Part shown: positions 3,399 through 22,425 of the stretch, in pieces
Layout: the number at the start of each line of letters is the position of its first letter
Numbering within the stretch: position 1 is the stretch's first letter
NCBI GenBank assembly: GCA_900299205.1
Contig: OMIW01000077.1
Span: forward strand, 1 to 24,551
Direction: 5' to 3'
DNA length: 24,551 nt
Source: Pseudomonadota bacterium
GTDB lineage: Bacteria; Bdellovibrionota_C; UBA2361; OMIW01
Made by a program: the position numbers and the translations under genes
The notes under the pieces: model-generated
The model's input: only the letters and a program-made list of their open reading frames with translations
What the model was told of the DNA's origin: nothing
Databases searched by the model: none

Positions 3399-5483
3399 AT
3401 GAAGTATTGGAATTTGTTAGGTTTGTTTTTTGTCGGATTGCAGGTCTTTCTGTACCCCCTTCGGGGGATGGCAGCGCCTTCGTCCGACGAGATCGATTTC
3501 GAGGTCATGGAAGAGGTTAAGCAGCTTTTCAAATCCTCTCGAGGGCTCGTATCAGAGCTAGACAAAAAGTACAAAGCCGAGTTCACCGCGATTGAATCTG
3601 CTCAACGAAGTCAAGGGAGGCTACTATCCGACCAAGCTGAAAATCAGAAAAAAGCCCTTAACTTGCTCGATACAAGCCTTTCTGCCGCTGTGGTAGAGCT
3701 TTTCACGGCAAACGCCCAGATAGCGATTATTCCCTCCATTGTTAAATTCGCCGATCAACTTGTGCTCATGACGGACTTTTACCGACAACAATCTGGGGCT
3801 CCTGTGGGTTCGGAGACCTTGAGCTGCGGTGTCGCGTGCGAGCATTTTCAGAGAAGAAGAAATGCTCTGTCCGGAATGATCGCCTTTCTGCGGGACGATA
3901 TGGTCAATTTGTCCGGAATCGTACGCAAAAGGCGGGAGAAGGTCGAGCAGATAGCGGGGGAACTATCGACGCTGCGTCAGAACGCTTCCTCTAGCTTGGC
4001 GAGGTTCGGTTTTGATCACTTCATTAATTTGAGAGTTGCCCTCCTCGAGGGGCAATCCGAGATCGTCGAAGATATCCAACGCCTGGGAGCTCAGATCAAT
4101 TTCGCAGGCCAAGCTGACTTGGTTCCTGCTCCGTGTGCTCCGGGAGTTTTTACTTTCACGAGCTTCAGCAGTGATGTTCAGCTTTTGTCGGCGTTGACAG
4201 CCGGATGGTCAGCATCAGGCGATCCGCTTCAACAATTCAACGTGAATCAGTGGATCCAAGGAACCACTCAGAACCCGGGCCCGCTCAAGGCTCGTCGAAA
4301 CCAGTATTTAGGCTATACGGACACCAATGGGATTTATCGACCGGGATGGTTGGATAATTGGGGTGGATGTTCTCAGACAAAGACGAATGTGCTCAATGAT
4401 TTTCGCTCAAAGGTTGAGGCGGAGGTGAGGCTGGGTAACATGGGTGCCGCTCGGAAACTTGACGAGGAAACGCTGACACTCCAGGTAGAGGTCGATGTCC
4501 TCACCGCTCACCGTTCTCGTTTGGAACAGTTCTCGACGTTGCTCCAGAAACTGGGGACTATCGCGACCAGCCACGCTGCCGTGCCGAAGGCTAATGAGGC
4601 CTGGAGCGATATGTGGAAGAGTTCTGTCATCAGTCAGATAAAAAATATCGAAAGGGTTCTGCTAGCCCAGAGGGAGGCTCTGTTTGCCAGTCAGATTCTT
4701 CTAAGGCTCGCGGAGGAGCAGTTATTACCCTTGGCATTGATCAGCGATGCCGATGAAAGGAGTGCTAAGCTCCTCTCGGTGCAGCGACGACTTGAGGCCA
4801 TCTCAAAGCAAGGTCTCGAAAGGATTGAGTTGGAGCTTACTCTGGCGGCAGGTAGCCTTAATACGATGAGTGCAAATATATTGAGCTCAGAAGGGATCGC
4901 CGGGGAGGGAGGTCTCGGAGAGGCCATATTGGCTTACGATACCATAACGAAGGTTAGAAGCAGCCAGATGAAGACCGAACGGGACGTTGAGCTGCCGGGT
5001 CGGCGTCAGAAAGCGGAGGCCCTCGTTGCAGAGCTCGAGCAATCAAGAGCGATTGCGATAGCCACTCTCCTCGATATTGAGAAACGGCAAGCGGAGCTCC
5101 GAGTCCTCGGGGATGAACTGAAAGGCCTGAAGACTCGTGTGGAAGGTTTTTTCGGCGTCAGATGGTCTCATCCCTATTACAGCGACCTTGCCCGCAGATT
5201 CCTGGTCGACCTAAAGGTGAGTACCGCGGCAAGAAATAGAATATTAAAAAAGGGAGTCCAAACTTTCCTCAAGTCATTTGCCACGGTGGGCACAGGAGGC
5301 TCTGCGTATCAGGGGCCTCCGTTTACGAAGCTGGGCTTGATGGCGAGGTCGCTGAGAACGAAATATGGGCCTCGAATGAGGCAATTGGCGGATGAAATTT
5401 CCTCTCCACAGCTCGGCGGGATGTCTTTTTCCTCGATTACCAAGAATTTGAAGGAAAACAAGGCGAAAGGCGCCTCTCTGTAG
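3399..5483 (+). CDS. Secreted coiled-coil protein of unknown function
   Basis: I do not recognise this 694-residue protein. The N-terminus is a signal peptide: MKYW, a hydrophobic stretch to about residue 19, then GMAA before a likely cleavage site near residue 26. The mature part is mostly helical, with long charged segments of coiled-coil character near residues 30-115 and in the last third (about 520-620). No C-terminal membrane segment is seen. Several cysteines (the SCGVACEH pair, APCAP and GGCSQ) could form periplasmic disulfides. The ATG at 3399 is preferred to the GTG at 3381 because the hydrophobic core follows it directly and a purine-rich GGGGGGG lies 5 bases upstream, although AGGAAG at 3374 abuts the GTG. 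The gene stands alone between a terminator and a convergent operon. A secreted structural or envelope role is inference only. Confidence 0.85.
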   Translation: MKYWNLLGLFFVGLQVFLYPLRGMAAPSSDEIDFEVMEEVKQLFKSSRGLVSELDKKYKAEFTAIESAQRSQGRLLSDQAENQKKALNLLDTSLSAAVVELFTANAQIAIIPSIVKFADQLVLMTDFYRQQSGAPVGSETLSCGVACEHFQRRRNALSGMIAFLRDDMVNLSGIVRKRREKVEQIAGELSTLRQNASSSLARFGFDHFINLRVALLEGQSEIVEDIQRLGAQINFAGQADLVPAPCAPGVFTFTSFSSDVQLLSALTAGWSASGDPLQQFNVNQWIQGTTQNPGPLKARRNQYLGYTDTNGIYRPGWLDNWGGCSQTKTNVLNDFRSKVEAEVRLGNMGAARKLDEETLTLQVEVDVLTAHRSRLEQFSTLLQKLGTIATSHAAVPKANEAWSDMWKSSVISQIKNIERVLLAQREALFASQILLRLAEEQLLPLALISDADERSAKLLSVQRRLEAISKQGLERIELELTLAAGSLNTMSANILSSEGIAGEGGLGEAILAYDTITKVRSSQMKTERDVELPGRRQKAEALVAELEQSRAIAIATLLDIEKRQAELRVLGDELKGLKTRVEGFFGVRWSHPYYSDLARRFLVDLKVSTAARNRILKKGVQTFLKSFATVGTGGSAYQGPPFTKLGLMARSLRTKYGPRMRQLADEISSPQLGGMSFSSITKNLKENKAKGASL

Positions 5484-5771: not shown

Positions 5772-6485
5772 TTACCCCTTTCGTGATTCTTCTTTCACAA
5801 TCTTTCCATCCTGCAAAGTAACTACTCTGGAAGCCCGATACGCGAGGGGCAGATTATGGGTCGTTACCATAATCGAGAGCCCTTGATGAGAGAGATCTTC
5901 GAAAAGGTCGAATATGCTGTCGCTGGTCGCAGAATCGAGGTTCCCGGTTGGTTCATCCGCGATGAGGACTTTCGGTTTAACTATCAGTGCGCGGGCAATT
6001 GCGACACGTTGCATCTGACCCCCCGACAATTCACGGGGAAGGTGGTCTGCTCGCGAAGCTATTTCGAGCGTTTCGAGGAGTGCGAGGGTGGTGCGGCGCG
6101 ACGGATTACGTCGCAGAAAGAGGAGGGGAAGTTCAACATTTTCTGCGACTGAGAGGGTCGGAAGAAGGTAGAATTTCTGGAAGACGAATCCGAAAAAACC
6201 TCGGCGAATCGCAACAAGGGCATCCTCGGAGAGTCCTCGAGTATCAATCCCGTTTATGATAAGGCTTCCCTCGGTCGGAGCATCGAGGCAAGCGACGGTG
6301 TTGACCAAGGTCGTTTTTCCTGATCCTGATGGCCCGACGATCGCGATCATTTCTCCGGTAGCTACTGAGAGATCCACACCATCGAGCGCACGCACCGTTT
6401 CACTCCCTCTGCGGTAGTGTTTCGTCAGATTTCGGCCAACAATGAGGGGCTCCTCGGCGGACGGATGATTTAGCGAATAGCTCAT
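5772..6485 (-). CDS. ABC transporter ATP-binding protein (MacB/LolD type)
   Basis: Cytoplasmic ATPase subunit of 237 residues, the usual size for LolD/MacB-class domains. Walker A is GPSGSGKTT (51-59), the Q-loop glutamine is Q103, the signature LSGGQMQRVAIARAL begins at 153, Walker B VLIADEPTGNLDS runs 173-185, and the H-loop is TTH at 208-210. All catalytic elements are present. It starts 9 bases after the stop of the FtsX-like permease, with GGAGAA of the permease 3' end serving as ribosome-binding site, so the two surely act together. It is the last gene of the minus-strand cluster. This ATPase class drives mechanotransmission in the envelope (LolCDE, MacAB, FtsEX) rather than simple solute import. 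The substrate is unknown. Confidence 0.93.
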   Translation of the reverse strand: MSYSLNHPSAEEPLIVGRNLTKHYRRGSETVRALDGVDLSVATGEMIAIVGPSGSGKTTLVNTVACLDAPTEGSLIINGIDTRGLSEDALVAIRRGFFGFVFQKFYLLPTLSVAENVELPLLFLRRNPSRRTTLALLETLEIASRADHLPRELSGGQMQRVAIARALIVKPKVLIADEPTGNLDSATSDSIFDLFEDLSHQGLSIMVTTHNLPLAYRASRVVTLQDGKIVKEESRKG

Positions 6486-6494
6486 ATTGTTGCC

Positions 6495-7790
6495 CTATTC
6501 TCCGGCCCGTATAGCTTCGAGAGGCCGCATTGATGAGGCGCGCCATGCGGGATACAGACCGGCAAAGAAGCCGACGAGCACGGTTCCTCCCAACGATAAT
6601 CCGATAATTCCCGGCGAGATCACAACGATCTCTCCTTGAACACCCAATTCAATGAGGTGACGAAGCATGAATTCAATGATTCCAGAGCCTCCATAAGCGA
6701 CAATGATACCCGCAAGCCCCCCGAGAAGGCACAGCGCGAGAGTTTCGTACCAGATGAGCTCGAATATGTCGCTTCGACTCGCCCCTATCGCCTTCATGAT
6801 CCCGATCTCTCCGGTACGCTCGTGAATGCTCATGAGGATGGTGTTGATGACCCCGATGATTGCAACCACTATCGCGATTACGGCGACTGCTCCTATCATC
6901 GCCTGAGCGGTGCTGATGAGGTTAAGAAGCGTTGATTTTACCTGCTGGAGGCCCACTATCTGCACCTCTGGCAGCGAGATCCATCTCTCCTCGAATTGAC
7001 GGATAGCTTGACTCGAAAATTCTTTGAGCTTCACTCCAACGACCGTGATCTGTGACGGACGATTAAAAATGCGTTGAGCGCTCGACAAAGGCATAAACAC
7101 GGTACCGTCATCCTGTGTGCCCGTTCGGCTCAGAATGCCAGCTACTGTATATTCATGCGTTTCGCTCGAGACAGCTCCTGACGGCGTAATAGTCAGAGCG
7201 ATCGTATCTCCAACTTTTCGCTGCTCGTACTCGGCTACTTCGTACCCGAGGACCACCTCTTGTTTGATGTTTTCCGGGGCCTCCTTGGTGACTTCGGTAT
7301 CGGTTGTAAACCACCGTCCCCCGTCGAAGCCGGTTCCGGTCTGAAAAGAGAGCCACGGCTTCATTGTCGTGAAGCTCGGCACTTCGATTCCACTGACCAC
7401 GATAAAGCTGCCCGCTCCGTCATCTTGTATGCTGGTTTGCTCCTTCTCTGCCACCCCGATAAAAACGGGGGTTATGCTGGCGACACCCGTATCGGTTGCA
7501 ACGTTAGTGTAAATGGAGTCGGGAAGGTAGAGGAGCCCGGTTCCTCCCTTCAGCATCATGGTTGCCGCTTCATACGGACAGCCCTTTGCCATCACCATCA
7601 CCTGAAACCCGAGCATATCGATGCTCCGCGTTATCGCTCCGTGATAACCCTTAACAAAACCAGCAAGCGAAACTGCGACCGCTACTGCAAGGGCCACTCC
7701 GGTAACAGCAAGAGATGTTCGGACAACGCGACGAAGGAGGTTTTTCCCCGCAAGGGTCGCAAATGCAAGGATGTGACGATGAAAATCCAT
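6495..7790 (-). CDS. ABC transporter permease, MacB-like periplasmic core with FtsX domain
   Basis: Inner-membrane permease of 431 residues with the MacB/FtsX layout. TM1 is at about residues 22-45, a periplasmic domain of about 240 residues follows, and three C-terminal TM segments lie at about 290-320, 345-372 and 393-418. The cytoplasmic coupling motif ERTGEIGIMKAIGAS after TM2 is the hallmark of the family, and the C-terminal PAWRASSMRPLEAIR is also typical. Unlike most MacB proteins, the periplasmic domain begins with a cysteine in AKGCPYEAA (C71), which may matter for a thiol or metal function. No MacA-like adaptor or TolC is encoded nearby. The start overlaps the GGAG-rich end of the OB-fold gene, whose stop is 5 bases upstream. 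The family is certain, the transported substrate is not. Confidence 0.9.
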   Translation of the reverse strand: MDFHRHILAFATLAGKNLLRRVVRTSLAVTGVALAVAVAVSLAGFVKGYHGAITRSIDMLGFQVMVMAKGCPYEAATMMLKGGTGLLYLPDSIYTNVATDTGVASITPVFIGVAEKEQTSIQDDGAGSFIVVSGIEVPSFTTMKPWLSFQTGTGFDGGRWFTTDTEVTKEAPENIKQEVVLGYEVAEYEQRKVGDTIALTITPSGAVSSETHEYTVAGILSRTGTQDDGTVFMPLSSAQRIFNRPSQITVVGVKLKEFSSQAIRQFEERWISLPEVQIVGLQQVKSTLLNLISTAQAMIGAVAVIAIVVAIIGVINTILMSIHERTGEIGIMKAIGASRSDIFELIWYETLALCLLGGLAGIIVAYGGSGIIEFMLRHLIELGVQGEIVVISPGIIGLSLGGTVLVGFFAGLYPAWRASSMRPLEAIRAGE

Positions 7791-7795
7791 CCAGG

Positions 7796-8176
7796 CTATC
7801 TCCGGAAAAATTGGACCGATTTCGCATTAAACACAAGTGAGCCGCTCTGTCGCTGGAGGGTTCCGGCAACCCGAGCTCGATACCCTTTTCGTTGCGGAAG
7901 AGAGGGAGCTACCTCTGACAATTCGATCCGGAGTCGCTGCTCACCAACCGCAAAGAAAAAGAAACAACCTGTCAGTGCGCACTGCCGAGTAACGATACCC
8001 TCAATCAGAAGTGGTTTGTCGAGGTATGTGTCCGGTTCCGTGATAACGGAAGCAAGGGGGGTCACAACATCGCTCGTAAATGGCTCCCCATACCGTTCGG
8101 GGCGAATCATCAGGCCAACGGTTGTCGCGAGAATTGCGATGCCGAGGACACTACAGAGTATGATGATATTTCTCAC
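7796..8176 (-). CDS. Membrane-anchored small protein with OB-fold-like domain and CxxxxC motif
   Basis: The gene encodes 126 residues. One TM segment (about 3-24) is followed by a small beta-rich domain. The run IEGIVTRQCALTGCFFFF (58-75) and the later RARVAGTLQ resemble OB-fold domains of the DUF4920 or tRNA_anti-like kind, where a Cys pair sits at the first strand hairpin. The cysteines here are C66 and C71. The start is GTG at 8176, preceded by GGAAGG and overlapping the upstream stop as GTGA, which signals translational coupling. The longer reading frame open to 8422 lies antiparallel in frame to the upstream gene and is not needed. Orientation is probably N-in with the OB domain in the periplasm, beside the permease. 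A thiol-redox, heme or metal role is inference. Confidence 0.8.
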   Translation of the reverse strand: MRNIIILCSVLGIAILATTVGLMIRPERYGEPFTSDVVTPLASVITEPDTYLDKPLLIEGIVTRQCALTGCFFFFAVGEQRLRIELSEVAPSLPQRKGYRARVAGTLQRQSGSLVFNAKSVQFFRR

Positions 8177-8922
8177 GAACCTTCCTTTGGACGAACGCCG
8201 GTCGGCTCGTTTAGCCGTTCCTGAGCGCGCAGGAAATATTGATCGCTGGCCCGCTGAAACAAAAGCAGGTCGAGAATGACGAGATTCTTCCGAACACCCT
8301 GCATAATCGCATAATAATCGATGAGGCTCTCTTCTGAAAGATCTTTTGGCGGATGTATCTGAGCAATCTTGTGCCGCGAATTTGAGGGGTCTTTCTCCCG
8401 ATAGTAGTCGTGCATATACCAATCAGCTAGTGATAGCCCCTCAAATTGGATGCGAAACGGCTTGTCGCGAAAAAGTTTAGAGGCGGGGCTCTCAAGCCTT
8501 TGGAAGAAGATCTGTCGAATTCCCCGAGTTGACGGATCAACAGAAAGGAAAAGCTGAATGACGCCACCCTTTCCGGGAATATTAACCCCGTGAACAATCC
8601 CTATCTTTTCTGCACCCCGAAATATCGAATATACCGTGTAGGGGGTGTCGATGCGATCAAAAACGGGGTCCGTTTCTCTTCCTATTCTCGATTCGAGTTC
8701 CTTGAATTGATATTCACCGTTCGCGAGCGAGGAGAAAGTTACGACATCTTCCTTGTATGACGTCATATCTGGAAAAACAAATCGAAGGTCCTGCGCGGGG
8801 TTCGTCAGGGTGCATCCTATCGCTGCAGATGCGACGTGAGGATTCAGACAGAGTGATATCAGGATGCCGATGAGCGAGACAAGGAATACTTTTCTGACAG
8901 AATAGAGGCGGGAGAAAATCAT
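8173..8922 (-). CDS. Periplasmic protein resembling FMN-binding (NosR/RnfG-type) domains
   Basis: This 249-residue protein has a signal peptide (hydrophobic residues 12-27, cleavage likely after VASA at 33). The mature domain begins NPAQDLRFVFPD. It then shows YTVYSIFRGAEKIGIVHGVNIPGKGGVIQ, a pattern of strand, Gly-rich turn and 'VxxDxxxxxI' (LFLSVDPSTRGIRQI) that I associate with FMN-binding domains. The covalent-flavin SGAT-type motif is not present, so flavin attachment cannot be claimed. The C-terminal YYAIMQGVRKNLVILDLLL is a conserved-looking helix. It lies 4 bases after the outer-membrane barrel gene and overlaps the next gene by 4 bases. The domain assignment is tentative; only its periplasmic location and operon membership are solid. 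Confidence 0.8.
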   Translation of the reverse strand: MIFSRLYSVRKVFLVSLIGILISLCLNPHVASAAIGCTLTNPAQDLRFVFPDMTSYKEDVVTFSSLANGEYQFKELESRIGRETDPVFDRIDTPYTVYSIFRGAEKIGIVHGVNIPGKGGVIQLFLSVDPSTRGIRQIFFQRLESPASKLFRDKPFRIQFEGLSLADWYMHDYYREKDPSNSRHKIAQIHPPKDLSEESLIDYYAIMQGVRKNLVILDLLLFQRASDQYFLRAQERLNEPTGVRPKEGS

Positions 8923-8926
8923 AAGA

Positions 8927-10237
8927 TTACCAATATCGATAGTATTGCAACGACACGATCGAGCCGGATCCCCGTGAGGGTGAGGATATTATCTGCTCGA
9001 CCGAGAGGTCCATCCAGTGGAGGTTTGCATTTGCGATGTCGTTCGTAAAATACCAGGCAATGTCGTAGATAATCGAACGGGAAACGCCTCCGGATCGAGA
9101 GGTATTCACGAGTGCATCAGTGGGAGGATGATGGTGATGACCCCCCGAGGTGGATGGAGTTCCCTGATCGAGCCACTGCTGACGAAGCTGCAGGTTTGCC
9201 CCCAACTGCCGCTTGTTGGTGAGATAGCCGAATTGATGAAGCTGCATCACGGTGCTGCGGTTATTGTCTGAGCCGACCGATAACTCGTTGGTTAGGGTAA
9301 AACTGCCGCGTTCAGTGGGCACGATGTAGCGCAGGTCAGGCCCAACCCGCATCGTGCGTATAATATCCGAGCCGTCAAATATCGCTGCTTGATGGGGAGA
9401 TGCAAGTCGCTCGCCGACGAGGGCACCCACGCCTGCTTCTAGCCCGTAGCGGTTCTTTATCGAGGTGCTTGTTCCGACGCGCACTCCGAGTAAGCCTGAT
9501 TGCCCCGCAAATCTAAAGTCATATCCTGAACCGACCAAATAGTAGATATCGTATGATGCGTATTCGGTCAGGTTTCCCCAGAATCCCGCGTACCAATCTC
9601 GCTCGAATCCGATATTCTGATCGTTGGAGAGTTGCAAGACCGTACCGTGAGTGTCGGTCGCGAGATTAAGTCCGAGGGGAAGGTAAAATCGACCGATACG
9701 GAGGTTCGCGACTCCTATGAGGGATGACGCCTGCTCGGCTCCGACAAGAAATGATGCTGGATTGTAGAGGTCGCAGTATGCATTATGATACTCAACTGCC
9801 CAAGGTATCCGGTCCTCCCCTTCTCTGTCCGATATGATTGGGATGTACCCGTCGCGTCGAACGAGGCGAGCCTGAAGATCGCATGAACCGATGGTACTGG
9901 TCTCGCTCTGGAATCGTCTCAGCCACTCGAATCCGATTGAGTGTCGGTTCGAGATTTCAGAGGAAGTATTTTCTGTGCGCTCCGGTTGATAGCTAACGTC
10001 ACGCACGACGGTCTGAAGAAAAAGCTCTCTTCGAAATTGCGTATTTTGGGCCCACCATGGTTCCTGGGAAGGATCAGCCGTCGGGGAGGTGGCGCGAGGT
10101 TCGAGATCCGTAAAGGGGTCGATGCCATCGCGTGGGGCTGCGATAGATACCGGGGGGAAGCTCCACGCGATGATAAAAAAGAGCAGTAGACCTAGGATGA
10201 TCCGACCAAAGGACTGGCCGAGGGAGGAGTGTGGCAT
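8927..10237 (-). CDS. Probable outer-membrane beta-barrel protein with His4 loop
   Basis: The gene encodes 436 residues, with a signal peptide (hydrophobic 13-27, likely cleavage after SIAA at 34). The mature chain alternates polar and hydrophobic residues with many aromatic girdle positions (for example YDIYYLVGSGYDFRFAG). It ends in LQYYRYW, a terminal aromatic residue recognised by the BAM machinery. A loop near the C-terminus reads GGHHHHPPTD (His 367-370, encoded at 9128-9139), consistent with metal binding at a surface or periplasmic turn. The specific porin family is not recognised. Translation starts 8 bases after the receiver-like gene, with AGGAGG in the end of that gene. Being directly upstream of a periplasmic protein and ABC genes, it likely supplies the outer-membrane part of the same system. 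Confidence 0.82.
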   Translation of the reverse strand: MPHSSLGQSFGRIILGLLLFFIIAWSFPPVSIAAPRDGIDPFTDLEPRATSPTADPSQEPWWAQNTQFRRELFLQTVVRDVSYQPERTENTSSEISNRHSIGFEWLRRFQSETSTIGSCDLQARLVRRDGYIPIISDREGEDRIPWAVEYHNAYCDLYNPASFLVGAEQASSLIGVANLRIGRFYLPLGLNLATDTHGTVLQLSNDQNIGFERDWYAGFWGNLTEYASYDIYYLVGSGYDFRFAGQSGLLGVRVGTSTSIKNRYGLEAGVGALVGERLASPHQAAIFDGSDIIRTMRVGPDLRYIVPTERGSFTLTNELSVGSDNNRSTVMQLHQFGYLTNKRQLGANLQLRQQWLDQGTPSTSGGHHHHPPTDALVNTSRSGGVSRSIIYDIAWYFTNDIANANLHWMDLSVEQIISSPSRGSGSIVSLQYYRYW

Positions 10238-10245
10238 GAGAGTGT

Positions 10246-10977
10246 TTATTCCTCCTTCTCTTCCCGCAATTTCGCCTTCTGTCGTTTCTCAAGCAGCTGG
10301 CGTCGAAGGCCCGCTAGGCGACCGCGCTTTCGCGGAGTAAGCGTGTCACAGATGTCGATCAATGTTGTCACAAACCCTCCCGAGCCGCCATCACAGAACA
10401 GCCGGAGAGATGACGACGAATTGTGAAGAGGATCCTTCTTAATTTTCGCACTGTCAATGCTACCTCCCGAATTCGAGGCCTTCGTCAGCTCAGCGGCGAC
10501 TCGGTCAATTTCATTCAAGAGATTTCGAAGGAGCACCTCATTCTTGATCGGCGAGCGAAGAATTTTCGGATCAAACGGCTGACCGTTCGTAGCCTCTCCT
10601 ATGGCATTGTCAAGCATGGGCAATGAAATGGGTAGCAATAGGTATGAACGAGAACCCGCAAGTATCATGTCTACCACTCTGTCTGGGTCTGGGTCCTGAG
10701 AGGCCGCAATCAAAATTGGCGGGGTCTTCAACTGCCGAATCCGTTGAGCAAAGATAATCGGATTTATGTCAGATTCTTCGACGGAGAAAATGACGTGAGA
10801 GAAACGTTCGCCAGCCACCCGTTGTAATGCGGCGCTGTGAAACAGAACGTGACGGGCGCTGCCGTACTGAAGCTTTACGAGCTGCCGTGTAAGCTCCTCC
10901 AGCCCCCATCCAACAACAAGGATGGAGGCGGTCTCGCGCTCCTTGGCGCTCATGAGAAACGACGGTCCCTCTTTCAT
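10246..10977 (-). CDS. Receiver-like (pseudo-receiver) protein with basic C-terminal tail
   Basis: The gene encodes about 244 residues. The first 120 follow the CheY fold pattern: ASILVVG strand, a helix, HVLFH strand, SHVIFSV strand, PPILIAAS strand and SYLLLPIS strand. The phosphoryl-acceptor Asp after the third strand is replaced (HVIFSVEESD), and the conserved Lys of the fifth strand is missing (LLLPI), so phosphorylation in the normal way is unlikely. The rest is helical, ending in an Arg/Lys-rich tail (about the last 35 residues) that could contact nucleic acid or membrane. The start is uncertain: TTG 10992, ATG 10977 and ATG 10953 are all in frame, and 10953 lies closest to the domain. 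It sits 8 bases before the outer-membrane barrel gene, so it may control or scaffold that system. Confidence 0.75.
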   Translation of the reverse strand: MKEGPSFLMSAKERETASILVVGWGLEELTRQLVKLQYGSARHVLFHSAALQRVAGERFSHVIFSVEESDINPIIFAQRIRQLKTPPILIAASQDPDPDRVVDMILAGSRSYLLLPISLPMLDNAIGEATNGQPFDPKILRSPIKNEVLLRNLLNEIDRVAAELTKASNSGGSIDSAKIKKDPLHNSSSSLRLFCDGGSGGFVTTLIDICDTLTPRKRGRLAGLRRQLLEKRQKAKLREEKEE

Positions 10978-11096
10978 AGGTGATGAAGTCAAAGAGCATT
11001 TCCGTGGAGGTATCGGCAGGACAGGGGGTTACCTTGAGATTTTTATCCGCTCAGTGAGTTCGGAGGGGATTTTGCGGCCCACAAGGAGCCGGTCTT

Positions 11097-12285: not shown

Positions 12286-13674
12286 TCAACGATTGGCGGG
12301 TACTCCGGCTCGATAATTACCCGTGAAGCACGCATCGCAGAATGAACCGGGTCTACTGCCTACCGCCCTATACATGCCCTCAACCGAGAGGTAGGCGAGG
12401 CTATCGGCCCCAATAAAGGTCCTAACCTGGTCGGTTGAGAGAGACGAACTGATGAGCTCCTCCTTGGTAGGGGTGTCGATACCATAGAAGCAAGGGGATA
12501 TAGTGGGAGGGGCCGAGATCCTTACATGTACCTCTCGTGCGCCCGCTCGTCGAATCATCTGGACGAGCTTTTTCGAGGTTGTTCCCCTGACGATTGAATC
12601 GTCTACCACGATAACTCGCTTCCCTTCAATCAACTCTCTGCTTGGATTGAGCTTCAATTTAACCCCGAAATCTCGAATCGATTGCTTGGGCTCAATAAAT
12701 GTTCGTCCCACATAATGATTTCGGATGAGACCGAGTTCGAATTGGATGCCAGATCGGTGAGCATATCCGAGGGCTGCAGCAACGCCTGAGTCGGGGACGG
12801 GAATCACGATATCCGCAGGAACAGGGGACTCCGCCGCGAGCTCCTCCCCCATTCTTTTGCGTATCGGATATACTGTCTTCTCAAAGACCATCGAGTCGGG
12901 CCGAGCGAAATAGACAAACTCAAAGATGCATGGGGCCGGGTTTGTCGGAGGGAATGGGAAATAGCTGGCGCGCGATCCTTCCCCTGATATTTCAATAACC
13001 TCGCCCGGAGAGATGTCTCGTTCGTAGTCGGCGCCGATAAGATCGAAGGCACAGGTCTCTGAGGCGAGTACGGTCGCGCCGTTCAGCTTGCCGAGGGCGA
13101 GCGGGCGCAGTCCAAAGCGGTCTCGTGCTGCATACAGCGTTTTGGGAGTTAAGATAAGGAGAGAAAACGCCCCCTCGGCGCGGAGGAGGGCAGCGTTCAC
13201 CCGCTCGGTGAGGGGTCGAGAGCGGTCTCCTCTCGCGATAAGATGAAGAAATACCTCAGTGTCGGAGGATGATGCGAAGATTGCGCCCTCTTGCACCAGC
13301 TCCTGTCGCAATTCGTCGGCGTTGATAAGATTACCGTTGTGCGCTACCGCTATGGGCCCATCAGCTAATTCTGCGGTAAAAGGCTGCACATTAAAGAGGT
13401 GGTTCCCTCCCGCCGTAGTATATCGAACGTGACCAATCGCATTTCGTCCTGAAAGGTCTGCAAAATCAAATCTTTGAAACACGTCAGCAACTAAACCAAG
13501 CCCCCGATAGGCACGAAGTGCTCCGTTCGGACCGGGGTCTCCCGCGACGACCCCCGCTGCTTCCTGACCTCGGTGTTGTTGGGAATAAAGCCCCAGATAA
13601 GCGAGGTTCGCAGCCTCTGGGTGGCCCCAGATGGCCATAAGGCCGCATTCGTCCCTGAATCCTGATTGAGACAT
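12286..13674 (-). CDS. purF: Amidophosphoribosyltransferase
   Basis: Catalyses the first committed step of purine synthesis, transferring glutamine amide nitrogen to PRPP to give phosphoribosylamine; cytoplasmic. The 462-residue length is typical. The start MSQSGFRDECGLMAIWG places the Ntn nucleophile at C10 after a 9-residue propeptide, as in the Bacillus type. The ATG at 13674 has AGGAA 6 bases upstream, and a longer reading frame to 13734 would only lengthen the propeptide. Glutaminase residues YTTAGG and AHNGNL (about 85-116) are present, as is the PRPP loop VIVVDDSIVRGTT (354-366). Cysteines C249, C395, C446 and C449 match the four ligands of the Bacillus subtilis 4Fe-4S cluster, so an oxygen-sensitive cluster is predicted. 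It is divergent from prkA. Confidence 0.97.
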   Translation of the reverse strand: MSQSGFRDECGLMAIWGHPEAANLAYLGLYSQQHRGQEAAGVVAGDPGPNGALRAYRGLGLVADVFQRFDFADLSGRNAIGHVRYTTAGGNHLFNVQPFTAELADGPIAVAHNGNLINADELRQELVQEGAIFASSSDTEVFLHLIARGDRSRPLTERVNAALLRAEGAFSLLILTPKTLYAARDRFGLRPLALGKLNGATVLASETCAFDLIGADYERDISPGEVIEISGEGSRASYFPFPPTNPAPCIFEFVYFARPDSMVFEKTVYPIRKRMGEELAAESPVPADIVIPVPDSGVAAALGYAHRSGIQFELGLIRNHYVGRTFIEPKQSIRDFGVKLKLNPSRELIEGKRVIVVDDSIVRGTTSKKLVQMIRRAGAREVHVRISAPPTISPCFYGIDTPTKEELISSSLSTDQVRTFIGADSLAYLSVEGMYRAVGSRPGSFCDACFTGNYRAGVPANR

Positions 13675-13964
13675 GATAGTTCCTGACAGAAGACGGTATC
13701 TCGAAGTTAGATTTCGACCGATTGATACAGGCAAATTGCTCCCGATTAGCGTCGGATGTGCCGCGCATTCTATCCGATAGGAAGAAGCGAGGGAACAAAA
13801 AGGATATCGTCAATCGTGATGAAACGGCTTTCTGATATTATTTCGAAGAAAAGATACCGGAACAAAAAACATCTACCAACCGAATCGACCAAACTCTCAT
13901 CATATCACAAGACGTAAGAAGAGGAGCGCCCGAGGAACAGGGAGTGACTGCGAGAGGAGCGACT
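13675..13964. other. Divergent purF/prkA intergenic region
   Basis: This 290-base region must hold promoters for both directions. I see a TATTAT at 13836-13841 that could be a -10 box for prkA, but no good -35 box at the right distance. No riboswitch-like or terminator structure is evident on either strand. The last 50 bases are purine-rich and include the prkA ribosome-binding site AGGAG at about 13955-13959. Confidence 0.35.
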
Positions 13965-15893
13965 ATGACTGAAGAGTTTCAAAGGATTATTCAACAAGAT
14001 CGAGAAGCGAGAAAAAAAGCGAGCTGGAAGGGCACGCTTCTGGAGTATCTCGAGCTCGTTCAGGAGGGTCCTGATCTCGCCAAATTATCGCACAAAAGGC
14101 TTTACGATATGATAGTTTCGTGCGGAGTGCGCGACATATCGGCCGATGAAGATCCAAAATTAAAACGGCTCTACAAGTCGGGCAGTGTTCGAACCTACAA
14201 CTTCTTCTCCGACGAGTTTTACGGCATGGAGAAGACGATTAACCAGATTGTGCGATACTTTCACTCTGCCTCACTCAAGGGCGAGGAGAGTCGCCAGGTT
14301 CTCTATTTTGTAGGGCCCGTCGGGTCGGGAAAGAGCTCACTGGTTGAGCGGTTGAAGAAGGGGCTCGAGGAGCTGAGCTTTTTCTACGCGATAGATGGAT
14401 GCCCAATGTATGAGGAGCCGCTCCATTTGATCCCGCGACACTTGAGGAAAGAGTTCTCAAAACGGCTCGGTGTTCAGATTGAGGGCGACCTTTGTCCCGT
14501 CTGTCGATATCGACTTAAGGAAGAGTTTCAGGGGCGGTGGGAGGAAATGCCGATCCGCACCCACGAGTTCAGCATTCGAGCAAAGCGAGGTGTCGGCGTT
14601 GTTCCGCCAGTAGATCCTAACAATCAGGATACGAGCGTTTTGATAGGGGGGGAAGACATTTCAAAACTCGACCTGTATTCGGAGGGTGACCCGCGGGTAC
14701 TTGACCTATCGGGTGCGCTCAACGTCGGAAACCGGGGTATGGTTGAGTTTATCGAGGTCTTCAAAAATGAGACTGAGTATCTTCACGCGATGATCACTGC
14801 CACGCAGGAGAAGTCGATACCCGCGCCGGGGCGGCACGGGATGATCTACGTCGATACCTGTATTGTCGCCCATTCAAACGAAGCCGAATGGAAAAAGTTT
14901 AAGAGCGACCATACGAACGAGGCAATTCTCGATCGTATTGTTACAGTGAAGGTTCCGTATAATCTGAGACTCTCAGAGGAAGTCAAGATTTATCGCAAGC
15001 TCATTCGACAGTCACGATTCACCGCAGATATAGCTCCTCATACGATCGAGGTTGCCTCGATGTTCGCGATTTTGAGCCGACTCGATCCAACTAATAAATG
15101 TGATCTTCTCACAAAACTAAAGCTCTACAATGGTGAAGAGGTCGTCGAGAAGGGAAGGACGAAGAAGATAGATATTACAGAGCTCCGTGAAGAGGCAAAG
15201 AGCGAGGGGATGACCGGTATTTCAACCCGCTTTATTATGAAGGCGCTCGACAACGCATTATCGGATAATATCGAGGCGAACTGCATACATCCGATTAGCG
15301 TTCGTGAAGCATTAGTGAATATGGTGAAGGAATCAGACTTCGCTGATGATGTGAGGAAGCGATATCTCGAGTTCCTTCAGGATACCCTTCACAAGGAGTA
15401 TCTTGAGATACTCGAAAAGGAGATTACGAAAGCCTTCGTTTACTCATATCAGGAACAGGCAGAATCTCTCTTCCAAAACTATCTTGATCATGCCGAGGCG
15501 TATGTGACGAAGCGACGATTCAAGGATCGGAATACTGGCGAAGAGTTAGAGCCTGATGAATCCTTTATGAAGTCGATTGAGGAACAGATAGCAATTGTCG
15601 GTACTGCGGCGGATGGATTTAGGCAAGAGGTTATTGCTTATCTCTGGAGTATCGGACGCAAAGGAGAAAAAATTACGTATGAGAGCTATGAGCCTTTGAA
15701 AGAGGCGATTGAGAAAAAGCTGATGGCGAGTGTCCGAGATGTTTCGCGGATTATCACCAAAGCACGAACGCGTGATGATGACCAGTCTAAGAAGTACGAC
15801 CGGATGGTTGAACAGCTAATAAGGAATGGGTATCCCGCAAGTTGTGTGGATACGATTCTTAAATACGCGGCTAACAACCTCTGGAAAGATTAG
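13965..15893 (+). CDS. prkA: PrkA-family serine protein kinase / AAA+ protein
   Basis: The protein has 642 residues, normal for PrkA/YeaG. An N-terminal AAA+ domain carries Walker A GPVGSGKS at 117-124. The C-terminal region is the PrkA kinase-like domain. The protein is cytoplasmic; family members act in stress and starvation survival and sporulation control, and some are reported to have protease activity. The start is ATG 13965 with AGGAG 6 bases upstream, rather than GTG 13944. It is the first gene of the conserved trio with DUF444 and SpoVR genes, and only 3 bases separate its stop from the next start. Confidence 0.95.
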   Translation: MTEEFQRIIQQDREARKKASWKGTLLEYLELVQEGPDLAKLSHKRLYDMIVSCGVRDISADEDPKLKRLYKSGSVRTYNFFSDEFYGMEKTINQIVRYFHSASLKGEESRQVLYFVGPVGSGKSSLVERLKKGLEELSFFYAIDGCPMYEEPLHLIPRHLRKEFSKRLGVQIEGDLCPVCRYRLKEEFQGRWEEMPIRTHEFSIRAKRGVGVVPPVDPNNQDTSVLIGGEDISKLDLYSEGDPRVLDLSGALNVGNRGMVEFIEVFKNETEYLHAMITATQEKSIPAPGRHGMIYVDTCIVAHSNEAEWKKFKSDHTNEAILDRIVTVKVPYNLRLSEEVKIYRKLIRQSRFTADIAPHTIEVASMFAILSRLDPTNKCDLLTKLKLYNGEEVVEKGRTKKIDITELREEAKSEGMTGISTRFIMKALDNALSDNIEANCIHPISVREALVNMVKESDFADDVRKRYLEFLQDTLHKEYLEILEKEITKAFVYSYQEQAESLFQNYLDHAEAYVTKRRFKDRNTGEELEPDESFMKSIEEQIAIVGTAADGFRQEVIAYLWSIGRKGEKITYESYEPLKEAIEKKLMASVRDVSRIITKARTRDDDQSKKYDRMVEQLIRNGYPASCVDTILKYAANNLWKD

Positions 15894-15896
15894 TCT

Positions 15897-17108
15897 ATGA
15901 GCACGATTTTCCGGCCCTATACCCCGACCTCCCAGCGGTCGGACAGAAGTGCTCGGGATCGCCTTCGGCATCGCCAGAAGATTAAGGACTCGATACGGGA
16001 CAATATCGGCGACATTCTTGCCGAGGAATCGATCATCGGTCGTGATCGAGATAAGGTGATAAAGGTACCGATCCGTTCTATCAAAGAGTTTCGGTTTATC
16101 TACGGTGATAATGCGCCGGGGGTAGCTCAGGGGAATGGAGAGCAACAGCCGGGCGATGTCGTGCAAAGCTCACCAGAGCAGGGGCAAGGGCAGGGTGAAG
16201 GAGGAAATCAGCCGGGAGTCGACGCATTTGAAACTGAGATAACGCTCGATGAGTTGATCGACATCATGTTCGAAGACCTTGAGCTCCCTGAACTTGAACG
16301 GAAGTCGCTCAAGCAGATTATCTCAGATGATGCCACCAAGCGAAAAGGAAGGCGACACGCGGGCATCCGGCCTCGGCTCGATAAGAAGATGACTGCCCGT
16401 AATCGTATTCGACGGAAGCTTGCGGTTGGTCGCGCACGCGAGGTTGACTTTGATGAAGAGGACAGGCGATTTCCTTTTCACAAAGATGATATGAGGTATT
16501 TCCATATTGTGCCTACCGAACGAGAGGAATCAAATGCAGTAGTGTTCTGTATTATGGACACCTCGGGCTCAATGGGTACGGTCAAGAAATACCTTGCACG
16601 GAGCTTTTATTTCCTCCTCTTTCAGTTTGTCCGACAAAAGTACCAAAATGTTGAGGTCGTTTTCATCGCCCATCATACCGAAGCAAAGGAGGTGACTGAG
16701 AACGAATTTTTCCATAAAGTCGAGTCGGGAGGAACCTACATATCCTCTGGTTATCGTAAAGCGCTCGATATCATCAACGACCGCTACCATCCGTCCTTAT
16801 GGAATATCTACGCATTCCATTGTTCAGATGGAGATAATTTCTACTCAGATAACGATAGAGCGGTCGCGGCGGCAAAGGAGCTGTGCTCAGTTTGCAACCT
16901 TTTCGGATATGGAGAGATAAAGCCAGCGGGGAGTGCCTACTACAGCGGGACGATGCTGGAGACTTTCGCGCAGGTGAAGTCGGAAAACTTTTGCACCGTC
17001 ACAATCGAGCGCAAGGAGGACCTCTGGCCTGCATTCCGATCGGTGTTGACCAAAGACAAGACCAGAGCGATCGGGGGGGAGACGACCGCGACGGCGGTAG
17101 GGTCGTAG
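15897..17108 (+). CDS. yeaH: DUF444 / YeaH-YhbH family protein with VWA-like domain
   Basis: The protein has 403 residues. The N-terminal part is basic and contains a Gln/Gly-rich low-complexity stretch (about 73-106). A von Willebrand A-like domain follows, with a MIDAS motif DTSGSMG at 221-227. The C-terminal half contains YAFHCSDGDNF, typical of the DUF444 family. It is the standard partner of PrkA and SpoVR; its molecular role is poorly known. The 3-base spacing from prkA shows tight co-expression. Confidence 0.95.
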   Translation: MSTIFRPYTPTSQRSDRSARDRLRHRQKIKDSIRDNIGDILAEESIIGRDRDKVIKVPIRSIKEFRFIYGDNAPGVAQGNGEQQPGDVVQSSPEQGQGQGEGGNQPGVDAFETEITLDELIDIMFEDLELPELERKSLKQIISDDATKRKGRRHAGIRPRLDKKMTARNRIRRKLAVGRAREVDFDEEDRRFPFHKDDMRYFHIVPTEREESNAVVFCIMDTSGSMGTVKKYLARSFYFLLFQFVRQKYQNVEVVFIAHHTEAKEVTENEFFHKVESGGTYISSGYRKALDIINDRYHPSLWNIYAFHCSDGDNFYSDNDRAVAAAKELCSVCNLFGYGEIKPAGSAYYSGTMLETFAQVKSENFCTVTIERKEDLWPAFRSVLTKDKTRAIGGETTATAVGS

Positions 17109-17139
17109 TGATGTCATTCCCCGTGGAGATGGAGCACCT

Positions 17140-18600
17140 ATGACCGATTATGATCTTGACGAGCTAAAAGCATGGGATGATCGGATTCTCGAATTCGTTC
17201 ACCGTTATGGGCTCAACTGCTATCCTCAGGAATTTGAGGTCTGCGATCATAATGACATGATCGGCTATATGGCCTACTCCGGTATGCCATCCCACTATCC
17301 TCATTGGTCATATGGAAAGGGCTATGAGCGGCAAAAGACCATGTACGAATATGGCGTGTCAGGACTGCCGTATGAGATGGTTATTAACTCTCATCCGTGT
17401 CTTGCCTATTTGATGCGGGATAATACGCTACTCCTCCAGATACTGACCATCGCTCATGTATATGGCCACAATGATTTTTTTGCGAATAATTTTACCTTTA
17501 AGTCAGGTCTCGATGCCCGCTATACGATAGAGCTGTTCAAGAACCATGCGAATCGGGTTAAGGGCTACATAGAAGATCCCTCAATTAACATCGACCTAGT
17601 TGAATCAGCGATTGACCACGCTCATGCGATATCGTGGAACTGCCAGCGTAATATGGCAATTAAAAAGCTTTCGCACGAAGAGCAGCTTCAGCGGCGAATT
17701 CAGGCGAGTCGGGGTGCCGAGGATCCCTGGAGTGAGATTCATCCACCAAAGACCTTTCATCCCCCCGATCTCGACAAATTTCCCCTTGAGGCTGAGGAGG
17801 ATATCCTCCTTTTTATCGCGGACAACAATCCTTTTCTTCCCGAGTGGAAGCGCGATGTCATGCGGATTGTTGATCAGGAGGCCCGCTACTTCCTCCCGCA
17901 GATGGAGACTAAGATCATGAATGAGGGGTGGGCCAGTTATTGGCACCATAAGATCCTCAATGCTCTTGAGCTGGATCAGGGGCTTCACATGGAGTTTATG
18001 GTTCGTCATAACCAGGTGCTTCGCCCACATCCAGGGGGAATCAATCCATATCATCTCGGGTTTGTCTTATGGCACGACATTGAACGACGATGGAATGAAG
18101 GAGATACGGGGCGAGAGTTTACTGATGACAAGCCTCAGGTAGCCATTTCATCGCTCGATGAAAACGAAACACCAGGCCGCAAAAAGATATTTGAGGTACG
18201 GGAGACCGACCGCGATGCCTCGTTTCTTCGGCGGTTTCTCACCGTGGATGTGATGCGAGAATTGGAGCTTTTTCAACACGAGAAACGGGGGAAGGAGCGA
18301 ATTATCACCAAAGTTGCTGATGATGAGGGGTGGGAAGAGATTAAGGAAAATCTGATTAAGAGCACGGGCATGGGCTCGATCCCGGTCATCAAGATCGAGG
18401 ATGCTGATTTCGGAAAAAACAGAACGCTCTATTTAAAGCACGCGCACGACGGGCGTGACCTCCAGCTTGATTACGCCGAGCCGACGCTTAGACACATCAG
18501 AGCACTCTGGGAGCGGGAGGTGGTTCTTGAGACAGTCCTGAACGGGAAACGTTCGCTCCTGAAAATGGGGGAGTCTTCAATGAAGGTGGAGAAGTTGTAG
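17140..18600 (+). CDS. spoVR: SpoVR family protein (YcgB-like)
   Basis: The protein has 486 residues, close to the family norm. Conserved runs include the opening with YPQEFEVCDH, the HYPHWSYGKGYE segment (about 52-63), the IAHVYGHNDFF segment (about 107-117) and MNEGWASYWHHKIL in the middle, as in SpoVR/YcgB. The many His and Glu residues in these motifs suggest a metal site, but no activity is established for the family. The start is ATG 17140, with GGAG 5 bases upstream. It is the third gene of the prkA-yeaH-spoVR operon, which is linked in other bacteria to stationary-phase or stress survival and to sporulation or development. Confidence 0.95.
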   Translation: MTDYDLDELKAWDDRILEFVHRYGLNCYPQEFEVCDHNDMIGYMAYSGMPSHYPHWSYGKGYERQKTMYEYGVSGLPYEMVINSHPCLAYLMRDNTLLLQILTIAHVYGHNDFFANNFTFKSGLDARYTIELFKNHANRVKGYIEDPSINIDLVESAIDHAHAISWNCQRNMAIKKLSHEEQLQRRIQASRGAEDPWSEIHPPKTFHPPDLDKFPLEAEEDILLFIADNNPFLPEWKRDVMRIVDQEARYFLPQMETKIMNEGWASYWHHKILNALELDQGLHMEFMVRHNQVLRPHPGGINPYHLGFVLWHDIERRWNEGDTGREFTDDKPQVAISSLDENETPGRKKIFEVRETDRDASFLRRFLTVDVMRELELFQHEKRGKERIITKVADDEGWEEIKENLIKSTGMGSIPVIKIEDADFGKNRTLYLKHAHDGRDLQLDYAEPTLRHIRALWEREVVLETVLNGKRSLLKMGESSMKVEKL

Positions 18601-18825: not shown

Positions 18826-18847
18826 TAATCCAGAAAAATTTGGATTA
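18826..18847. terminator. Possible hairpin at the end of the DUF3352-like gene
   Basis: TAATCCA (18826-18832) and TGGATTA (18841-18847) are perfectly complementary around an 8-base A/T-rich loop. The right arm contains the stop codon of the minus-strand lipoprotein gene. TTTT follows on the plus strand only, so it may act as a weak terminator for transcription arriving from spoVR. Confidence 0.35.
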
Positions 18848-20818
18848 TTTTGAGGGTTTTGGAAGTTTCCGCCACACAACCTCAACGAATCCTTGATCAA
18901 ACTGAAGAGTCAAATACATATCCCCTAAATCTTCTATCGCATTAATGTGTTCCATCTCCAGGGGAGATTTTCCTTGACCAAATGCCGCGAGAGTCGCATA
19001 CAGTCCCCGGAGAATCTTTCCAATTTGGACTGCATTTGCGCGAGCAACGAGAGGAGCTTTCGACTCAGTCGTAAGCTGGAACGGTGCGACAGAAGCCGAA
19101 GCTGTGTTCGTTTTCTGCGCTGTTATCATCTTCGTTACCCCCGCCTCACTGCTCCCGATCAGAAGCGCATCTTTCGATTCGGCGAGAAACAATCCGATAC
19201 CGAAGGGACTGAGCACGTATGTTGTGTTGACACCGTCAATTGACTTGGTTTCCCACGTTCCCATCGGCATACCTGAATCCCGAATCATTGGGGTAAGCCC
19301 TACCTTGATGGCTTCACTCAGGGCGGCCGCGGAGGTCGATTCAATCACGATACCGAGATCTGGCAAATACGCACCTTCTGTCTGCTCGAACAAAGCCAAA
19401 GCAACAGACTGGATAGAGGTAAGCGCGGCGTACGGCGAATCCTTCGGCATTGGGAACATTTCAAGCGCCTTACCGACCGGTACATAGGCGCTGAGAAGGA
19501 GGGCGACATTCGCGGGTAGTACGCGCAACGCTCCAGGAATCTTTGATTCGTTGAGACTGTCGTATAGCGCGGCTGCATCTGGTCGCGATTTGTCAATCAA
19601 TGAGGTGGCCCGGAAGGTGAGTGCACCCGATTCATCGACGGACCCCCTGAAAACGATCGCCTGAGCCGGAATATCGCTAATCTGGGTTATGGCATCCTGT
19701 AATGAGGGAAGCTTTTCTGCTATCTCATCGGTGGTCGTTGCCGGTGTTCCGGTACCATCTTGGGACGCCGAGCATGCCTCATCAGAGCCCTCGCAGGAAC
19801 TGTCTTTCTTCGATGTCGTTTGACCAAGCAGCTTCTCAAGGGCATCGCGCTTGGACTCAAGCGCCTGCTTGAATTGACCGAGGTCAAAGTAAACGTGGAG
19901 AAAATCATTCTCTGATTGGGGCAACCGTCTGTTCACTTGGGTGACGGTCTGACTGCTTATCACCGGGGGAAGGGTCGTCACGTTCGGATTTAGACAGTGC
20001 GAAACTGCTTCAGAGCTCGAGCTCACTCCGAGGACGTTCTCGGAGGATGCCCCGATGAACACTGTAACCTTTGTGGTTTGAGCAGCGGAGGTATTCACTG
20101 ATGCTGTCGAGGATTGCTGAGAAGCGATTCCCCCCGAATTGTCCTCCTTTTCCTCAGCAGACTCTGGCACTTCTGCCGCAATCTCAGTGCTAATTGCATA
20201 GCCCTTGATTTGTCCAAAGGTATGTTCGGCGACTTCATAGTTACGGCCCCGAACGCCATCGATGAGAGTTTTTAGCTTATTCGCGAACTCTGGGCCGGTC
20301 GCACACACACCGCCATTGATTGGCTGCTCAGAGTTTCCGGCTGACGCAAAAATAACAACTTGCTGATAAGAAGGGGTTCCACTTGGCTCGCGGGGAAGAA
20401 AGCCCGCGCTCTCAAGAATTTCAACAAGGTCCCTTTGAACAACATCAATTGAGCGAGCGGACTGGGTAGTTGTGGCAGAGGCTCCTGATTTGGAGTCATC
20501 CTCCTTTTTTTCTGAACTCGTCGGCTTGTCTGCGGCTGATATGTACTTTCGAACTGTGTCTAGAGATTGGGAATATAAACGCTTACCACCCGCGCTTTCA
20601 CCGTCATATGAAACCAGCAGGAATGTTCCCTGCGGAGCACGAGAGAGAAAATTTGTCTGGGGTGTTGAAGCTGCATTTTGACCTGTTGCAGTCGTCGCTG
20701 CCTCATCTTTCTTCGAACATCCCGCGAGTACCACGAGAGCTGAGCAGAGCAGCCCGGCAGCAACAGGGGCAAAATGGATAAGAGGGCGCGGGAATGGACG
20801 ATTGGCAGGTGCGATCAT
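18845..20818 (-). CDS. Large lipoprotein resembling DUF3352 proteins
   Basis: The protein has 657 residues. A lipoprotein signal ends in LVVLAGC with the lipidated Cys at 34; the mature N-terminus (SKKDE) suits outer-membrane or periplasmic anchoring. Repeated sections of the kind APQGTFLLVSYDG and LPANVALLLSAY are reminiscent of the DUF3352 family of envelope proteins without known activity. They are separated by long Ser/Thr/Glu/Lys-rich low-complexity linkers near residues 100-125, 225-260 and 355-395. The start is ATG 20818, with AAGGA 8 bases upstream; the frame is open further upstream into the end of the GH57 gene but without a signal sequence there. It follows the GH57 gene by 50 bases and is probably co-transcribed. 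Confidence 0.8.
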   Translation of the reverse strand: MIAPANRPFPRPLIHFAPVAAGLLCSALVVLAGCSKKDEAATTATGQNAASTPQTNFLSRAPQGTFLLVSYDGESAGGKRLYSQSLDTVRKYISAADKPTSSEKKEDDSKSGASATTTQSARSIDVVQRDLVEILESAGFLPREPSGTPSYQQVVIFASAGNSEQPINGGVCATGPEFANKLKTLIDGVRGRNYEVAEHTFGQIKGYAISTEIAAEVPESAEEKEDNSGGIASQQSSTASVNTSAAQTTKVTVFIGASSENVLGVSSSSEAVSHCLNPNVTTLPPVISSQTVTQVNRRLPQSENDFLHVYFDLGQFKQALESKRDALEKLLGQTTSKKDSSCEGSDEACSASQDGTGTPATTTDEIAEKLPSLQDAITQISDIPAQAIVFRGSVDESGALTFRATSLIDKSRPDAAALYDSLNESKIPGALRVLPANVALLLSAYVPVGKALEMFPMPKDSPYAALTSIQSVALALFEQTEGAYLPDLGIVIESTSAAALSEAIKVGLTPMIRDSGMPMGTWETKSIDGVNTTYVLSPFGIGLFLAESKDALLIGSSEAGVTKMITAQKTNTASASVAPFQLTTESKAPLVARANAVQIGKILRGLYATLAAFGQGKSPLEMEHINAIEDLGDMYLTLQFDQGFVEVVWRKLPKPSK

Positions 20819-20868
20819 GGAGGAATCCTTGAGGGTATGGGGGCAGCGAGAACGGGATGAAAGAGAAA

Positions 20869-22332: not shown

Positions 22333-22425
22333 GGGCGGACTCCGGGCGGAAAGGCAAAGGGGAAGCTGCAAAAATGACAACGACCCCCAGATCCTACCTC
22401 ACCGGGAGGGGGGAGAAAAGAGAAA

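Follow-up and report, generated by a model that had tools for sequence, protein, structure and literature searches.

The window analysed here is contig OMIW01000077.1 of assembly GCA_900299205.1, a stretch of 24,551 nucleotides that makes up one whole contig of a 206-contig, 2.4 Mb draft genome. Its minus strand carries five closely packed open reading frames (ORFs) from 5772 to 10237, which we call the cassette. From its upstream end, the cassette encodes an outer-membrane porin-like barrel with 16 predicted strands (8927-10237, 436 amino acids), a secreted periplasmic protein with a predicted NqrC/RnfG flavin mononucleotide (FMN)-binding fold (8173-8922, 249 amino acids), a membrane-anchored OB-type protein, apparently of the DUF4920 kind (7796-8176, 126 amino acids), an FtsX/MacB-type ATP-binding cassette (ABC) permease (6495-7790, 431 amino acids) and an ABC ATPase subunit (5772-6485, 237 amino acids). 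The first two assignments come from the ORF, a structure model and a family alignment, the third from the translation and family matches. The intergenic spacing is 4, -4, 5 and 9 bases, and the GTG start of the OB gene overlaps the stop of the preceding periplasmic-protein gene. We describe the cassette as an FtsX-type ABC system that is linked to metal, brings its own porin and re-uses an FMN-binding fold.

Among the window proteins, the ATPase matches the Pfam family ABC_tran (PF00005, 2.5e-32; 112.8 bits against a cut-off of 25), and the permease matches FtsX (4.6e-22; 78.8 against 25.5) and MacB_PCD (5.3e-15; 56.7 against 27), which places the pair in the ABC3/FtsX-MacB superfamily. The Walker A, LSGGQ and Walker B motifs of the ATPase are intact. 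The barrel, periplasmic and OB proteins of the window matched no named Pfam or NCBIfam family at useful scores, and PDB sequence searches with these three families gave no credible match. A previous sequence-only reading of the window had proposed the same coordinates and gaps, and had named an ATPase, an FtsX permease, an outer-membrane barrel and an FMN-binding-like periplasmic protein; the ORF list, the Pfam matches and the models reproduce all of these. It had also treated the locus as a five-gene unit. This holds for the conserved set, but in the window a sixth ORF (10246-10992, minus strand, faintly response-regulator-like) ends 8 bases ahead of the barrel gene, and the local unit is therefore not strictly five genes. 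The sixth ORF is probably co-transcribed with the cassette. We rejected it as a sixth component: it lies outside the conserved cassette, its family belongs to the host lineage (36 of 42 genomes of the class have relatives, as many as six in one genome), and it is absent from every other cassette locus.

The barrel model (predicted local distance difference test score, pLDDT, 84) contains 16 strands. The nearest solved fold is OprB, with a Z score of 25.0 and a root-mean-square deviation (rmsd) of 4.2 over 334 residues, followed by OprP (Z 24.5, rmsd 3.9 over 320 residues) and OprO (Z 24.5). The model suggests a 16-strand porin closest to the substrate-selective porins OprB and OprP. Nine residues are invariant in the barrel family alignment (E71, Q122, R124, N152, D195, H197, D214, R253 and D301). 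The window barrel also has a run of four histidines, in a loop of low model confidence, which the sequence-only reading took as a sign of metal. We discarded this run as a metal site, as no other barrel among the 46 has a run of at least three histidines. In eight Geobacter-type loci (L070, L072, L073, L075, L076, L078, L079 and L084), a gene of about 570-680 amino acids with a c-type-cytochrome-like start stands in the place of the barrel.

According to its model (pLDDT 93.5), the periplasmic protein adopts the FMN-binding fold of NqrC and RnfG, with matches to NqrC (4xhf_C; Z 10.7, rmsd 3.5, 156 residues) and RnfG (8ahx_G; Z 12.8, rmsd 9.3, 171 residues). The S-G-A-T motif that marks the covalent flavoproteins NqrC and RnfG is not found in the family. 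By a register judged by eye, the place of this flavin-attachment motif is taken by D-[FY]-x-A-[TSAILV], and by D-Y-Y-A-I in the window protein, with isoleucine in place of threonine. The Pfam family FMN_bind has no match in the window protein or the periplasmic family. The alignment instead shows a different set of conserved residues: C37 in 56 of 56 sequences, H111 in 55 of 56, Y98, N114, Q141 and K212 in all, and an HGVN motif. Since C37 is preceded by Gly, Ser or Asn, with no Leu at position -3, the protein is likelier to be secreted than lipidated at C37. Two loci (L120, 6878-8143; L124, 9119-10378) encode an NqrC-fold protein with a long C-terminal extension, about 420 amino acids in all.

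The OB protein appears to belong with the DUF4920 family (PF16267): 27 of 40 family members match, at best with 1.1e-8, and the window copy itself stays below a match. Its CxxxxC motif, already pointed out in the sequence-only reading, is real and conserved (C66 in 40 of 40, C71 in 38 of 40). The anchor is a helix, and other clades have an apparent lipobox. The OB gene is fused to a YHS/TRASH domain in L016, and the OB protein of L053 has a Met/His-rich tail. Directly after its first helix, the permease carries the motif AKGCPYEAAT(M/L)ML(K/Q)GG, which opens the periplasmic domain and is present in 82 of 82 aligned sequences. The cysteine noted earlier at this position, C71, is likewise conserved (82/82), with M78 in 75/82 and M79 in 82/82; a remote Massilia permease reads GCPMEAAS. 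Judging from the signal and anchor layout, C37 of the periplasmic protein, C66 of the OB protein and C71 of the permease should lie on the periplasmic side.

The cassette is conserved far beyond the window. A permease-based pattern scan with six probes, PYEAATMM among them, gave 80 loci from many phyla, and gene order was counted in the 60 loci with at least 3.3 kb of upstream sequence. The barrel, periplasmic and OB genes lie upstream of FtsX in the same order and on the same strand in 42 of these 60 loci (41 automatic counts plus L008, where the FtsX frame opens early and the OB gene occupies 4887-5258). In 74 of 75 loci the ATPase gene stands next to FtsX. The remaining 18 of 60 loci form a Geobacter-centred variant without the OB gene, some of them also without a recognisable barrel; Peripla_BP_6 was matched by four scanned flanking genes of the Geobacter-type copies. 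Since selection by the permease was to be avoided, we also searched up to 290 genomes with the periplasmic-protein profile alone. The protein was present in 10 genomes, every time within the cassette; in one of them (G244) a contig end cuts the cassette after the barrel and periplasmic genes. In G037 the operon is split, with YtkA, barrel and periplasmic genes on one contig and FtsX and ATPase genes on another, and both halves were retained. The clustering of these genes is far beyond chance. The sequence-only reading had named scattered homologues in other genomes as a result that would speak against it; in the neighbourhood search the five families do cluster (42/60 loci, 10/10 genomes), which backs its view of one co-inherited unit that spans outer membrane, periplasm, inner membrane and cytoplasm.

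The cassette was found in about a dozen or more phyla, with the full set in Acidobacteriota, Verrucomicrobiota, Planctomycetota, Elusimicrobiota, Myxococcota, Omnitrophota and others, and a reduced form in Thermodesulfobacteriota. A remote five-gene copy is on a mobilisable plasmid of Massilia putida from wolfram mine tailings. Among the relatives of the host the spread is patchy: of 45 genomes of the class, two carry the permease, one of them the genome of the window, and none of the 27 sampled same-order genomes has the periplasmic protein. In the permease tree the phyla are intermingled, with 24 label changes against a minimum of 14, a pattern that fits repeated horizontal transfer, short of proof. 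GC content is equal inside and outside the window cassette and thus gives no hint that the cassette entered this genome recently. Misbinning of the contig was considered and rejected, since a neighbouring amidotransferase gene (12289-13734) is 68% identical to same-order genomes and the GC content is equal. Some copies differ in gene number. The OB gene of L119 (6183-7222) is a tandem duplicate. In five loci (L111, L117, L118, L120 and L124) a single FtsX gene is followed by two tandem ABC ATPase genes, suggesting a mixed ATPase pair.

The gene neighbourhoods of the relatives point to copper. In 12 loci (L042, L045, L050, L052, L053, L055, L059, L060, L062, L120, L123 and L124), though not in the window itself, a gene for a CsoR-family repressor with the Cys-His-Cys pattern precedes the barrel gene on the same strand, at a distance of 2-17 bases in seven loci and 199-510 in five. 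This pattern is the Cu(I)-type signature of the CsoR family. CsoR that binds Cu+ lets go of DNA, and copper export genes are induced (PMC3140484). The 12 loci represent about four lineages rather than twelve independent events; five share the large FtsX clade of the window, and three are from genomes found through the periplasmic protein only, with no use of the permease. In L120 and L124 the gene run includes a copper P-type ATPase (in L120 above the curated cut-off of TIGR01511, 625 bits against 397), a metal-sensitive repressor, a TlpA-like protein, YHS proteins and a small Cys-rich secreted protein. The Geobacter-centred variant is accompanied by YtkA-family genes in 21 loci and by NosL, which binds one Cu(I) (PMC7558416), in 12. 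TlpA-like neighbours occur in L054, L120 and L124, and DsbD-type neighbours in L054, L120 and the Massilia plasmid, whose copy has an ArsR/SmtB metalloregulator ahead and the DsbD N-terminal-domain gene after it. More distant FtsX relatives are within heavy-metal clusters, on plasmids of Vibrio campbellii and Pelobacter propionicus. Short secreted Cys-rich proteins with no Pfam match are encoded directly upstream of the barrel in L118 (5639-6052), L119 (9104-9535), L120 (9582-9968) and L013 (5261-5620), and are possible metal-binding partners.

These observations bear on the cargo, for which the sequence-only reading had suggested a metal or thiol-redox compound. Its theme is backed by the conserved cysteines, CsoR and the TlpA/DsbD neighbours, with the histidine run removed from the argument. 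Between the metal and the thiol that it left side by side, the metal is retained, and the CsoR, CopA-type ATPase, NosL and YtkA genes of the relatives point to copper(I). We consider the cassette to be, more likely than not, a trans-envelope ABC system that handles Cu(I) or a similar soft metal, most likely by ATP-driven efflux of periplasmic copper. Efflux is favoured because CsoR responds to copper excess. In such a system, the anchored OB protein (by helix or lipid), with its CxxxxC motif, and the NqrC-fold protein, with its invariant cysteine, would bind or relay periplasmic Cu(I). The metal would be handed on to the GCPYEAATMML site of the permease (CPYE...MM). In FtsX/MacB engines, ATP is thought to move periplasmic domains rather than cargo across the inner membrane (MacB, PMC11481552). 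The two-subunit MacB-like engine of the cassette may likewise convert ATP hydrolysis to periplasmic conformational work (mechanotransmission) instead of inner-membrane transport, and its stroke would deliver the metal to the dedicated 16-strand porin for exit. For this the parts would have to form a complex. We infer the same function for the window copy.

Several points weigh against this interpretation. No copper gene flanks the window's own cassette, and no CsoR family gene is detectable in the window genome. This genome does encode a P-type ATPase that scores above the cut-off of the copper subfamily. CsoR is also missing from most close relatives in Acidobacteriota, Elusimicrobiota and Myxococcota. 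Without CsoR, the window cassette must be regulated otherwise, possibly together with the upstream ORF 10246-10992. NosL and YtkA also accompany copper delivery and cuproenzyme assembly, and porins are passive and often serve uptake. The probe PYEAATMM inflates the apparent invariance of that stretch of the permease; it does not cover C71, and GCPYEAAT or GCPYELAT also stands in copies that were found independently.

The main rival to copper efflux is the opposite use of the same metal. The porin would admit copper, the periplasmic proteins would carry it, and the ABC engine would drive its insertion into cuproenzymes, like NosDFY-NosL. NosL and YtkA in the Geobacter-centred variant agree with such a role, as do an outer-membrane part of porin type rather than TolC type and the multicopper oxidase genes near L015, L021, L028, L030 and L031. 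However, CsoR control and a linked copper P-type ATPase suit an excess of copper rather than a shortage, and we regard acquisition or delivery as unlikely. The N2O-reductase propeller (NosZ) had no match in six Geobacter-type genomes; this search had no positive control and is not used as evidence.

Two further explanations appear still less likely than copper delivery. The conserved cysteines and the TlpA/DsbD neighbours could act on disulfides or export a small thiol, with the metal links secondary, and the CxxxxC motif of the OB protein would suit a thiol-disulfide system. Two of 40 members, and the Massilia copy as well, do without the second cysteine of this motif, indicating that a disulfide is not essential; moreover, the Cys-His-Cys pattern of the CsoR copies speaks for copper, and a thiol exporter leaves the copper ATPase and NosL links unexplained. 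We therefore find a thiol function improbable. The FtsX/MacB_PCD architecture would also be compatible with an exporter like MacB or LolCDE, whose cargo would be lipids, lipoproteins or a small molecule that chelates metal, as has been argued for Pseudomonas aeruginosa PA4064-PA4065 (pyochelin). That system has been reassigned as a chelator exporter of the MacB kind (PMC11481552). The families listed for the surroundings of the cassette include no recurrent genes of chelator synthesis, the LolD, LolC/E and MacB cut-offs are not reached, and the cassette has no MacA, TolC, LolA or LolB, an absence that the sequence-only reading had correctly stated. We find an exporter of this kind improbable as well.

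Copper efflux as proposed here would assign a role to the five families, of which three have window members that match no named Pfam or NCBIfam family. If true, envelope copper handling would gain an ATP-driven route, and the FMN-binding fold would be seen to have taken on another job. More tentatively, the cassette may be a widespread ATP-powered alternative to CusCBA, in which an FtsX engine, a dedicated porin and an NqrC-fold protein whose flavin has given way to a metal role expel periplasmic Cu(I) in many phyla, having spread horizontally and on a plasmid. Cultured hosts exist (Geobacter argillaceus, Geomonas silvestris and Massilia putida). Elsewhere in the window, PrkA kinase, DUF444 and SpoVR genes lie in a row (13944-18600), a well-known stress-linked trio, and two overlapping minus-strand ORFs of 687 and 503 amino acids (18845-20908 and 20869-22380) have no Pfam match at E 0.01.

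In the open-access literature, we found no description of the five-gene set and no matching characterised system, and each known candidate differs from the cassette. MacAB-TolC and the split MacB systems (PA4063-PA4066 and the Vibrio ZrgABCDE) have an FtsX/MacB_PCD permease and an ABC ATPase in common with it, and in PA4064/PA4065 the two are separate subunits, as in the cassette. MacAB-TolC itself was rejected: the cassette ATPase is separate where that of MacB is fused, the MacB equivalog scores 66 bits against a cut-off of 966, and the conserved set is without MacA and TolC. LolCDE was rejected by scores of 215.7 against 307.75 bits for LolD and 89.3 against 362.45 for LolCE, together with the missing LolA/LolB. 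ZrgABCDE is Zur-controlled and combines an ABC permease and an ATPase with DUF2796, DUF2607 and DUF3299 proteins (PMC9817125). Neither the window proteins nor the periplasmic and OB families contain these three domains, and the system was rejected as a match. PA4063-PA4066 and Zrg are under Zur (zinc) control, and Zrg has a periplasmic metal-linked protein, whereas the CsoR and ArsR links of the cassette are to copper or soft metals. The cassette has its own porin and NqrC-fold protein, and no MacA, TolC, DUF2796 or DUF3299.

The SifABCDE/P19-Ftr1 iron systems resemble the cassette in an FtsX permease, an ATPase, an FMN-binding-type extracytoplasmic protein and a transition-metal link. They comprise two FtsX permeases, an ATPase, an FMN-binding protein and FTR1/P19, and serve ferrous iron in Bifidobacterium breve (PMC5449479). 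The cassette has one permease, its conserved set is without FTR1 or P19 genes, and it has an outer-membrane porin, a DUF4920-type protein and copper-type regulators, so we rejected this match as well. The RnfG/NqrC subunits share a fold with the periplasmic protein; the latter is without the conserved flavin motif, has the invariant N-terminal cysteine and HGVN, and stands outside any electron-transport operon. NosDFY-NosL combines ABC subunits with the Cu(I) protein NosL, as the Geobacter-centred variant does. It was rejected too: the cassette permease is of the FtsX type with FtsX and MacB_PCD domains, no NosD was found among the window proteins or recurring neighbours, and NosL is absent from the main five-gene form. 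CusCFBA has in common with the cassette the removal of periplasmic Cu(I) across the envelope, which for the cassette is a proposal. CusCFBA uses a proton-driven resistance-nodulation-division (RND) pump and a TolC-like channel, whereas the cassette would use an ATP-driven FtsX engine and a porin.

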